From Sneathiella marina (lineage in GTDB: Bacteria; Pseudomonadota; Alphaproteobacteria; Sneathiellales; Sneathiellaceae), in NCBI RefSeq assembly GCF_023746535.1, contig NZ_CP098747.1:1060364-1124363 (forward strand): DNA of 64,000 nucleotides. Direction: 5' to 3'. A model generated the notes under the pieces. The model was given only the letters and a program-made list of their open reading frames with translations. It did no database searches and was not told where the DNA came from. This document shows positions 35,460-42,399 of the stretch, piece after piece; positions within the stretch are counted from its first letter, which is position 1, and each line of letters begins with the position of its first letter. The translations under genes and the position numbers were made by a program.

Positions 35460-35608
35460 AAAAAAAATGCCGACCAAATAAATGGCCGGCAAGTCTAACA
35501 GGGAGGTTGCATCTCTCTCGAGATACGGGACAAGTCGGGCAGGGAGGAGCCCTATTGTCCAACACCAGAAGGGGTCTGGTGTGGTAGCACGCTGCATTGC
35601 AGCATCGC
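35460..35608 (-). ncRNA. Putative anti-Shine-Dalgarno sRNA, copy A
   Basis: Reading the minus strand, a possible promoter (TTCAAA at 35639-35644, 18 bases, TATACA at 35615-35620) precedes a 5' hairpin GCUGC-AAU-GCAGC. A stem GGACAA...UUGUCC carries CUCCUCCC in its loop; then a 7-bp hairpin closed by GAGA, the tail ACCUCCCUGUUAGACUU, and a terminator (GCCGGCC-AUUUAUUU-GGUCGGC) running into eight U residues. Three further copies with the same layout occur in this window. The 5' end is estimated from the promoter, so length (about 149 nt) is approximate. Confidence 0.68.
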
Positions 35609-35684
35609 TATTACTGTATATTGGATGCAATCAGAAAATTTGAACCCGAAAAAATTCATGGCTGCCATGCATTTAATGCATATC

Positions 35685-35834
35685 AAAAAAAGACCGGCCC
35701 CTTGCGAGGCCGGCCTAGTCTAAAGGGAGGTATATCCTTCGATAATACCGATTGTATGTGTCTGGGAGGAAAACACACAATCCACATATCAGCTGGGAGC
35801 TGATAACTGATCAATGCTGCAATGCAACATTCAT
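35685..35834 (-). ncRNA. Putative anti-Shine-Dalgarno sRNA, copy B
   Basis: A likely promoter (TTGAAA at 35864-35869, 17 bases, TAAGTT at 35841-35846) precedes a 5' hairpin UGUUGC-AUU-GCAGCA. Next come a hairpin around UCAGCUCCCAGCUGA, a stem GAUUGU...ACAAUC with UUCCUCCCAG in its loop, a hairpin with a GAAG loop, CCUCCCUUUAGACUA, and a GC terminator with a U-run. Same architecture as copies A and C but with diverged stems, so the conserved parts are the CCUCCC motifs, the tail and the terminator. Confidence 0.7.
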
Positions 35835-35977
35835 GATCAAAACTTAGTGTATGGCTAACGCTTTTTCAATAGAAATATTGCACTGCACCTATGTAATTCA
35901 TGCATGCCAGATATGCAGTTTATTGGATCTCTTATGGCATTAAAAACGGCGAAATTTATGTAATGCTGAAGGGGCGC

Positions 35978-36135
35978 AAAAAAAATGCCGGCCAAATGAA
36001 TGGCCGGCAAGTCTAACAGGGAGGTGTCATGTCAGGGAGACATGACGTTGCAAAAAACTGGGAGGAATTTTTGCAACATTCACAAAGATCAAGAGATCTT
36101 TCGTGAAAACTGATATTGCAATGCAACATCGTATG
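35978..36135 (-). ncRNA. Putative anti-Shine-Dalgarno sRNA, copy C
   Basis: The minus strand reads a 5' hairpin GAUGUUGC-AUU-GCAAUAUC, a hairpin UUCAC...GUGAA with inner AAAGAUC pairing, a 10-bp stem GUUGCAAAAA with UUCCUCCCAG in its loop, and GUCAUGUC-UCCCU-GACAUGAC. The tail ACCUCCCUGUUAGACUU is identical to copy A, and the terminator GCCGGCC-AUUCAUUU-GGCCGGC ends in eight U. No good -35 box was found. The 5' end is placed by analogy with A and B. Confidence 0.68.
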
Positions 36136-36224
36136 CCCTTTTGTATGAAATTCTTGTGGTCAGGGAAAGATCAATCTCGGCAACGCCGATATGCAATTAC
36201 TGCATAGCTTGATAAGATGTTGTT

Positions 36225-37115
36225 TTAAAAAGCAGATTCGGCGACTTTTTGAATTAGGAAGTCCCTGAAAATTGTAACACGCTTGGATTTTCGTAATTCT
36301 TCTGGGTAAACATAATAACTGTCGAAGGAAGGGCCGCCCATATCTGGAAGAATACGGACTACATTGCTATGTCCCTGGACGATGTAATCGGGCAAGCTGG
36401 CGATGCCGAGGCCACTTTGGACAGCCAACAACAATCCATATACATTATTGACCTTGAAGACCGGCACTATTTCCTTTCCAAGTTCGGAAAGCTCTTTCAT
36501 CACCCAATTGACATTGGCAATATTTGTCGGTGCCTCATCGCCGTAAACGATAAGGTTGAAATCAATAACATCTTCAATGGTCGACGGTGTCCCATGTTTT
36601 TTCAAAAAATCAGGGGAGGCGTATAAGTGGTGATTGACCGTCATTAGTTTGCGCTGAATAAGATCAGGTTGCACGGGTGCCCTTAATCTGATGGCAATAT
36701 CTGCTTCGCGCATCCCAAGATCGAGTTCCCGATCGGCCAGAATTAGGTTTACGGTAATTTCAGGATATAGTTCGATAAACTCACGAATGCGGGGTGTGAG
36801 CCAGTTCGCTCCGAGGCCAACTGTTGCCGTAACTCGGATCTCACCAGACGGTTTTTCCCGCGCGTCCATCAGCTGCGCTTCAGTCATTGCGAGTTTGGCA
36901 AAAACATCATGCGCCGTCCGAAATAGCAATTCTCCTTGTTCCGTCAACAGAAGGCCGCGGGCATGACGATGGAAGAGGGCAACCTTCAGGCTGTCTTCGA
37001 GTGCACTAATCTGTCGGCTAACAGCAGATTGGCTTAAATGCAGGGTTTCACCGGCGTGAGTAAAACTACCCGCTTCGGCTACGGCATGAAAAACGCGAAG
37101 TTTATCCCAGTCCAT
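36225..37115 (-). CDS. LysR-family transcriptional regulator upstream of trxB
   Basis: The 296-residue protein has an N-terminal helix-turn-helix (MDWDKLRVFHAVAEAGSFTHAGETLHLSQSAVSRQISALED, about residues 1-41) and a LysR effector domain (VTATVGLGANWLTPRIREFIELYPEITVNL, LDLGMREADIAIRLRAP). A GTG at 37145 is in frame, but the ATG at 37115 begins the canonical MDWDKLRVF start. It is oriented away from trxB's downstream end and next to the sRNA cluster, which lies on the same strand behind it. Confidence 0.9.
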   Translation of the reverse strand: MDWDKLRVFHAVAEAGSFTHAGETLHLSQSAVSRQISALEDSLKVALFHRHARGLLLTEQGELLFRTAHDVFAKLAMTEAQLMDAREKPSGEIRVTATVGLGANWLTPRIREFIELYPEITVNLILADRELDLGMREADIAIRLRAPVQPDLIQRKLMTVNHHLYASPDFLKKHGTPSTIEDVIDFNLIVYGDEAPTNIANVNWVMKELSELGKEIVPVFKVNNVYGLLLAVQSGLGIASLPDYIVQGHSNVVRILPDMGGPSFDSYYVYPEELRKSKRVTIFRDFLIQKVAESAF

Positions 37116-37245
37116 CTTGATGTCCAGATTACAGGTTAAGGGCACCCAGGAATACTGGGACTAACCTTTTCTTATTATAAAGTCAGATTACCCGATAATT
37201 TGCATCGAAGACAAGGTTGTCTCGCAATATTTCGGTTATCCTGGC

Positions 37246-38217
37246 TTACTCAGCAGCTTCCTTAGATGTAGAGCTTTCATTAGCCGCAATAAATTTTTCG
37301 GCTTCAAGGGCGGCCATGCATCCGGTACCCGCTGCAGTAACAGCTTGGCGGTAAATTTTGTCCTGCACATCGCCACAGGCAAAAATGCCGGGAATATTGG
37401 TTGCTGTCGAATCAGGAGCTGTAATCAAATATCCCTCGTCATCCATTTCCAATTTTTCTTTAAACAGCTCTGTATTCGGGCTATGACCAATAGCGATAAA
37501 TACCCCATGAACTGACACATCTTGTGTCTCATTCGTATGAACATGGCGAATTCTGGCTGCAGTTACACCAAAGGGATCTGCTTCACCGATAATTTCTTCC
37601 AGAACATGATCCCAGATTATCTCAATTTTCGGATTTTTCTTAAGCCGTTCGATCAGGATTTTTTCCGCCCGCAAGGAATCGCGCCGATGAACCAGGGTCA
37701 CCTTGTCCGCATGATTTGTCAGGTAAATTGCTTCCTCAACGGCTGTGTTTCCTCCGCCGATTACCATGACTTCCTTTCCACGATAGAAAAACCCATCACA
37801 TGTCGCACAGGCGGAAACACCAAAACCCATATATTTTTCTTCAGAAGGAAGGCCCAGCCATTTTGCCGCCGCGCCGGTCGCAATGACGACGGTTTCCGCA
37901 ATATATTTTGTCCCAGAGTCTGCTGTAGCGACAAACGGGCGTTGGCTTGTGTCCAGGTCTGTGATGTAGTCATTGAAAATTCTTGTTCCGACATTCTTAG
38001 CCTGAGCTTCCATTTGTTCCATTAGCCATGGGCCCTGGATTGGCTCTGCAAATCCAGGGTAGTTTTCGACATCTGTTGTAATGGTCAATTGTCCACCTGG
38101 CTGCAATCCATGAACGAGAATCGGGTCCAAAGAGGCACGTGCCGCATAAACTGCAGCGGTATCGCCCGCTGGACCAGAGCCAATTATTAAAACATCAGTA
38201 TTGTGGATTTCAGCCAT
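37246..38217 (-). CDS. trxB: Thioredoxin-disulfide reductase
   Basis: TrxB reduces thioredoxin with NADPH. The 323-residue flavoprotein has the FAD motif IIGSGPAGDTAAVYAARA, the redox-active CATC (Cys137 and Cys140 in SACATCDGFFYRG), the NADPH motif MVIGGGNTAVEEA and the late FACGDVQDKIYRQAVTAAGTG. It is followed by the LysR gene on the same strand with a gap of about 130 bases. Confidence 0.97.
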   Translation of the reverse strand: MAEIHNTDVLIIGSGPAGDTAAVYAARASLDPILVHGLQPGGQLTITTDVENYPGFAEPIQGPWLMEQMEAQAKNVGTRIFNDYITDLDTSQRPFVATADSGTKYIAETVVIATGAAAKWLGLPSEEKYMGFGVSACATCDGFFYRGKEVMVIGGGNTAVEEAIYLTNHADKVTLVHRRDSLRAEKILIERLKKNPKIEIIWDHVLEEIIGEADPFGVTAARIRHVHTNETQDVSVHGVFIAIGHSPNTELFKEKLEMDDEGYLITAPDSTATNIPGIFACGDVQDKIYRQAVTAAGTGCMAALEAEKFIAANESSTSKEAAE

Positions 38218-42159: not shown

Positions 42160-42273
42160 AAAAAAAGAGCCGCCTATGAAAGGCGGCCCAAGTCAACAGG
42201 GAGGCGTCATAAGGACTGGAATTGGGATTCCAATCCATGTAATCCGTATCGGACTACATCTTTCAATGTAGCG
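42160..42273 (-). ncRNA. Putative anti-Shine-Dalgarno sRNA, copy D
   Basis: The minus strand shows a candidate promoter (TTGCGT, 17 bases, TTTAAT) directly before a 5' hairpin CUACAU-UGAAAG-AUGUAG. A 10-bp stem GGAUUGGAAU-CCCA-AUUCCAGUCC follows, then GCCUCCCUGUUGACUU, and a terminator GCCGCCUUUCAUAGGCGGC with seven U. It shares the tail and terminator design of copies A-C but lacks the loop-borne CCUCCC. About 114 nt; the ends are approximate. Confidence 0.62.
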
Positions 42274-42399
42274 AAAATTTATTAAATTACAATTAACGAA
42301 TACACGCAAATGGATTTATCGTGACCACTTATGGTCATTTTTTCGACATGATTCGGACGGAGTTTTAAGTGTGCGAATGATTTAGAAAATCATATTGTC

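Follow-up and report, generated by a model that had tools for sequence, protein, structure and literature searches.

The minus strand of the window (the whole 64-kb stretch of the Sneathiella marina genome that was analysed) carries, at approximately positions 35461-36132, three homologous sRNA units, each ending in its own terminator. The units (A, B and C; each ~150 nt) fill the interval between a LysR gene and a molybdopterin oxidoreductase gene, and each comprises four hairpins (H1 to H4) and a CCUCCCU(G)UUAGACU tail that is single-stranded, followed by a strong terminator (Table 1). We consider it likely that they are tandem trans-acting sRNAs, activated by LsrB and probably repressed by PhaR, which silence uptake genes by masking their Shine-Dalgarno (SD) sequences and whose origin is an ancestral module of trxB, lsrB and an sRNA. 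The analysis showed directly the conserved structure, the strand, the synteny, the operators and the complementarity; from these we infer transcription, the action of LsrB and PhaR, the use of Hfq and silencing.

Table 1. Features of the sRNA locus and its surroundings, in window positions
Feature	Position	Strand	Details
Unit A (LysR-proximal, ~150 nt)	35978..36132	-	H1 36130-36112; H2 36107-36079; H3 with UUCCUCCC loop 36077-36047 (motif at 36067-36060); H4 36046-36026; tail 36024-36010; terminator 36009-35986 + T-run
Unit B	35685..35834	-	H1 35834-35810; H2 with CUCCC loop 35809-35783; H3 with UUCCUCCC loop 35782-35750 (motif at 35771-35764); H4 35749-35729; tail 35730-35717; terminator 35716-35691 + T-run
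Unit C	35461..35608	-	H1 35605-35589; H2 35582-35562; H3 with CUCCUCCC loop 35560-35528 (motif at 35549-35542); H4 35526-35509; tail 35506-35492; terminator 35491-35468 + T-run
Predicted LsrB/VtlR-type operator, unit A	36181..36205	-	ATGCAGTAATTGCATATCGGCGTTG
Predicted LsrB/VtlR-type operator, unit B	35881..35905	-	ATGCATGAATTACATAGGTGCAGTG
Exact published 13-nt box	35916-35904		GCATATCTGGCAT; just upstream of unit B operator
Predicted LsrB/VtlR-type operator, unit C	35657..35681	-	ATGCATTAAATGCATGGCAGCCATG
PhaR/AniA-type palindrome in H1, unit A	36117..36125		TGCATTGCA; motif fit
PhaR/AniA-type palindrome in H1, unit B	35818..35826		TGCATTGCA; motif fit
PhaR/AniA-type palindrome in H1, unit C	35593..35601		TGCAATGCA; motif fit
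LsrB/VtlR-type LysR regulator	36225..37145	-	Conserved N-terminus MDWDK ~10 codons past listed GTG
trxB-like thioredoxin reductase	37246..38217	-	Pfam: pyridine nucleotide-disulphide oxidoreductase fold; conserved upstream neighbour of lsrB/vtlR

A preliminary description had placed three homologous units at these minus-strand coordinates, and every element that it named was present there: the 5' hairpins with AAU or AUU loops, the anti-SD loops UUCCUCCC and CUCCUCCC, the conserved tail, and the terminators, which end in 7-8 T. Additionally, our analysis revealed two more hairpins per unit (one in the interval between H1 and the anti-SD hairpin, the other before the tail), operators in the promoters, and a 5' palindrome that also fits a DNA operator. 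The anti-SD sequence is exposed in one main loop and the tail of units A and C, and in two loops and the tail of unit B. Folding of the three units was stronger than that of shuffled sequences (z-scores of -7.8, -5.4 and -9.9), and the minus-strand folds (-62.7, -60.2 and -63.3 kcal/mol) exceeded in stability those of the plus strand (-56.2, -42.4 and -56.5 kcal/mol). A terminator scan detected three strong terminators, all on the minus strand, compared with an average of 1.1 sites in shuffles of the region. Thus, the stronger folding, together with terminators pointing the same way, identifies the minus strand as the sRNA strand. A small-ORF reading was rejected, as the copies of any given unit share no conserved ORF of at least 14 codons.

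Of ten Sneathiella-type loci, nearly all carry all three units, identically ordered, behind an orthologous LysR gene; the locus L012 has no recognisable unit C. All helices covary strongly across 10-11 such loci: in the per-unit alignments of A, B and C, the consensus structures contain 39, 46 and 36 pairs, with 92.0, 98.4 and 94.0% of the cells paired, and when partners were slid by 1-3 columns as a control, pairing fell to 26-45%. Two-sided changes affected 17, 12 and 18 pairs, respectively, and were matched in none of 500 shuffles, so that the paired-column support originally set as a check was obtained in all three units. The most conserved unpaired parts are the anti-SD loops and the tail. 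Since terminators and short CCUCC motifs are common, the region could be thought to encode no functional RNA at all, the CCUCCC motifs being chance occurrences among repeated terminators and palindromes; this explanation, countered by the covariation, the conservation across genera and the synteny, has practically no probability, and the counts refute it unless the alignments are wrong. On this comparative evidence, the RNA structure of the three units is real.

The units lie directly downstream of an LsrB/VtlR-type gene with trxB ahead of it, the position that AbcR (ar15) occupies in rhizobia; AbcR of Agrobacterium and Sinorhizobium meliloti shows the same trxB-lysR-sRNA order (PMC7486931). 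The LysR protein encoded in the window is 80-88% identical to Sneathiella proteins, and its DNA-binding domain shares 79-83% identity with a Mesorhizobium regulator, as against 48% for the remainder. The conserved part of the protein lacks cysteine, and for this reason thiol redox sensing, as in S. meliloti LsrB, appears unlikely.

Among published LsrB sites, that of abcR1 (GCAT-N3-TG-N3-T) spans -61 to -49, and that of nfeR1 (TGCA-N6-GCAT) spans -72 to -60 (PMC8844928, PMC10746234). A candidate LysR operator was found ~75 nt upstream of each unit in the window, and a merged 25-nt box (ATGCRN6RCATN4GN3TG) was derived from these promoters. This box had five matches in the 4.07-Mb genome, against two for the reversed control; the three at the unit promoters hold by construction, as the box was written from those promoters, and the real test is its near-absence elsewhere. 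The remaining two matches (G000:C1:1497760-1497784 and 2452603-2452627; L181 and L182) may be due to chance or represent further LsrB targets. In unit B, the exact 13-nt box (GCAT-N3-TG-N3-T) was present ~64 nt upstream of the hairpin in 10 of 11 species; in the window itself, the box at that place has one mismatch and an exact copy lies just upstream. The published box, GCATGCGTGTGTT, also occurs in seven AbcR promoters of Mesorhizobium, at a matching place (-61 to -65). A simple sigma-70 scan of the region returned no promoter, and inspection of unit A by eye revealed no convincing -35 element. The -35 element is often missing from LysR-dependent promoters.

These operators bear on whether the units are transcribed independently. 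They could instead be processed fragments of the lysR mRNA 3'UTR, as lysR precedes them on the same strand and as they give sub-threshold Rfam matches to SorX, an sRNA that stems from a 3'UTR and has a similar tail. Each unit possesses its own conserved operator and its own terminator, which makes such an origin highly improbable and favours transcription from separate promoters. As a separate observation, neither the LsrB-type box nor the PhaR core survives in unit C of one Sneathiella subclade (L003, L004, L008, L009 and L010), yet the RNA is retained, which suggests, by analogy with abcR2 (RpoH1), that its regulation was switched.

The 5' hairpin H1 coincides with a second putative operator. 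In S. meliloti, PhaR (AniA) binds a palindrome with the core YGCRNYGCR and thereby represses the sRNA MmgR. The hairpins of units A and B, 22 in total, all fit this motif, loop included, and the loop fit counts in favour of an operator because base pairing alone does not demand an RNY loop. Furthermore, PhaR is encoded in the genome, where the same palindrome occurs twice ahead of a phasin gene and ahead of phaR. Repression of the units by PhaR is thus likely from their sequence. The preliminary description had read the differing stems as compensatory change; the covariation between species bears this out, with the exception that the changes in H1 are by themselves a weak argument for RNA structure, since the palindrome also fits a PhaR operator. 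More generally, a covarying 5' hairpin may be a DNA operator in disguise. Indeed, the 5' palindrome could be purely a PhaR DNA operator, with H1 not selected as an RNA hairpin and the rest of the RNA unchanged, as the RNY loop bases of the 22 copies and the identical palindromes ahead of phasin and phaR would suggest. We regard this as unlikely, because the hairpin outlives the motif: in most Sneathiella unit C copies the TGC-N3-GCA core is lost and a new hairpin (GATATTGAAATATATATC) preserves the pairing, and in L112, L113, L116 and L121 the motif is likewise lost and the hairpin kept. We therefore infer a double role for H1, as RNA hairpin and as PhaR operator.

Two further observations concern such palindromes. 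Two PhaR-type palindromes lie upstream of phaR (L092, 1379-1407), consistent with autoregulation. Moreover, a perfect PhaR-type palindrome with a hairpin, lacking the anti-SD tail, was found near 1501-1520 of L095/L089 (G000:C1:3102680), ~290 nt upstream of a 132-codon ORF that looks PilZ-like by eye; L089 also contains tandem glycine riboswitch aptamers (2351-2535; 68.5 and 41.3 bits).

A covariance-model search of related genomes, as proposed in the preliminary description, revealed relatives across the class. Among 289 alphaproteobacterial genomes, the joint model R2, built from 38 training sequences with rhizobia excluded, had matches in 124. The 29 loci with its best matches in other genomes are at most ~81% identical in DNA sequence to the training loci and thus represent other species. 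Among them, 25 lie behind a same-strand LsrB-like LysR gene, most with trxB ahead; of the exceptions, L117 lies behind trxB alone, and L106, L116 and L131 lack both genes. The operator core ATGC-N7-GCAT, which lies outside the modelled RNA, was present at -70 to -76 in 26 of the 29 loci (0.39 expected), and a PhaR-type palindrome in 21, a count that is partly circular since R2 contains the hairpin. In 11 of 11 rhizobial loci, R2 matched the AbcR locus and nothing else (E-values of 2e-6 to 2e-4), with a modest similarity (25-33 bits) that is carried by one hairpin, the tail and the terminator and is partly common to the SorX and suhB models. Rfam ar15 was confirmed at the AbcR place in two of these loci (L032 and L035).

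Within the S. marina genome, a fourth sRNA-like element, with a CCUCCCUGUUGACUU tail and a terminator, was observed downstream of a DUF1192 gene (window positions 42160-42302, minus strand). It scored 43.5 bits with the Rfam BjrC1505 model (cut-off 50) and an E-value of 2e-6 with R2; the other R2 matches in this genome were weak (E-value of 0.04 or worse).

The best reading of the sequence comparisons is that the units are positional orthologs of AbcR with an NfeR1-like architecture. Like AbcR1/AbcR2 of the Rhizobiales (ar15, RF02345), they occur in tandem beside lsrB/vtlR in the trxB-lsrB neighbourhood, have predicted targets among uptake genes, carry an LsrB/VtlR box near -60 (the 25-nt operator at all three window promoters) and expose the aSD1 motif (CUCCUCCC/CUCCCA) in a hairpin loop, as CUCCUCCC in unit C and UUCCUCCCA in units A and B. 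In contrast to AbcR (114-121 nt), the units are ~150 nt long, with two additional 5' hairpins; they contain a single-stranded CCUCCCUGUUAGACU tail in place of the aSD2/M2 motif GUUCCC between hairpins; they are present in three copies and begin with a PhaR palindrome; and their top predicted targets are TRAP genes instead of ABC genes. An Rfam search of the three units at E-values up to 10 yielded no ar15 match, listing suhB of the same clan instead, and we accordingly refer to AbcR-like positional orthologs and not to Rfam family members.

The units could alternatively be of the NfeR1 (ar14) or cuckoo/CcsR type, with the lsrB siting secondary. In NfeR1, hypervariable stems carry three aSD loops, and an LsrB site (TGCA-N6-GCAT) lies at -72 to -60 (near -70); the window units resemble NfeR1 in having several hairpins with aSD loops and such promoters. 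NfeR1 lies away from the lsrB locus, and the control described for it is repression by NtrC, where the window units carry a PhaR palindrome. The CcsR1-4/cuckoo RNAs, in turn, share with the units tandem homologous copies with CCUCC loops; they are co-transcribed with a DUF1127 gene and processed from its 3'UTR, whereas the units have their own operators and terminators, are flanked by lysR and the molybdopterin oxidoreductase gene and adjoin no DUF1127 gene, a context on which CcsR/cuckoo membership was rejected. Together with the lack of an Rfam ar14 match (E-values up to 10) and the class-wide agreement of position with AbcR, these differences render the alternative improbable. Of the two family leads offered initially, the ar14 likeness thus stood for architecture and LsrB-type control; the CcsR/cuckoo context is absent, and position and profile favour AbcR.

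Two other families were compared. SorX (RF02784) of Rhodobacter, an RNase E-processed 3'UTR product of ompR-1, resembles the units in its ACCUCCCUGUUGGACC tail, hairpin and terminator and differs in that the units have their own operators; membership was rejected on context and on scores of 43.1, 36.8 and 24.8 bits (cut-off 46.6), the model exceeding its cut-off in L005 and L112. MmgR (ar8; suhB, RF00519) shares the PhaR/AniA-type palindrome in the promoter region and a CUCCCU-AGACUU tail with terminator, but is 77 nt long, has one aSD loop and occupies a different locus; the units scored 29.1, 26.8 and 20.9 bits, below the suhB gathering score of 41.

Predicted targets were sought among 41 transporter binding-protein genes, whose start regions were compared with those of 147 other genes in this genome. 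Of 15 TRAP DctP genes, five (L168, L162, L169, L166 and L174) could pair perfectly over 11-14 nt at the SD (-11 to -18) with the exposed loops or the tail, a result to be read knowing that the target classes were picked by analogy and that DctP emerged as the standout only afterwards. The best pairing, of 14 nt, joins GUUUUCCUCCCAGA of unit B to L168. Among the controls, 3 of 147 had a match of at least 10 nt, none via the anti-SD motif (0 of 147), giving Fisher p-values of 1.6e-4 for all matches and 3e-6 for anti-SD matches only, the latter restriction having been imposed afterwards. The five DctP proteins are mutually only 19-31% identical, so that common ancestry of their leaders is unlikely to explain the shared pairing. 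For the other classes, the start-region comparison revealed no specific long pairing with LivK-type ABC binding-protein genes, and one Opp-type gene with a 10-nt pairing. There was also a broader SD preference for binding-protein genes, which the plain 16S anti-SD shows as well and which is therefore partly a matter of SD strength, and in at least one of 100 cases sRNAs with shuffled flanks also reached as many as five DctP genes; for both reasons, the DctP pairing is good, not final, evidence. The genome contains an Hfq gene.

Taken together, the covarying structure, the operator and terminator of each unit and the complementarity to TRAP SD sequences support the original suggestion that the units are probably a multicopy set of trans-acting translational regulators with their own promoters. 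In the proposed mechanism, the three sRNAs arose by triplication from a trxB-lsrB-sRNA module ancestral in Alphaproteobacteria, with rhizobial AbcR as its best-known form. LsrB/VtlR from the adjoining gene would bind ATGC-N7-GCAT ~75 nt upstream of each unit and activate it, as operator conservation and published LsrB biology lead us to expect, and PhaR would probably repress each unit at the TGC-N3-GCA palindrome at the transcript start, a repression that PHB granules would lift. The UUCCUCCC/CUCCUCCC loops and the CCUCCCUGUUAGACU tail would then pair with the SD of uptake mRNAs, chiefly TRAP DctP, and block translation, probably with Hfq. A wider scenario, which we entertain without favouring it, is that, in the ancestral alphaproteobacterial module, a single sRNA promoter answered both to activation by LsrB and to repression by PhaR (PHB granules), the 5' hairpin of the sRNA itself being the transcript of the PhaR operator; AbcR, NfeR1 and MmgR might then be later specialisations, and the Sneathiella triplication would silence TRAP uptake.

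AbcR sRNAs have been described for Rhizobiales; virulence and symbiosis are under their control in Brucella, Agrobacterium and rhizobia. Our literature search, whose coverage was incomplete, found no paper on the module outside Rhizobiales. From the present comparisons, the circuit of LsrB and its sRNA seems to be far older and to exist in free-living marine lineages; they also provide a concrete operator, a predicted carbon-storage input and predicted TRAP targets. The three sRNAs of S. marina look like a seemingly old, class-wide version of AbcR that would silence nutrient uptake according to carbon status.
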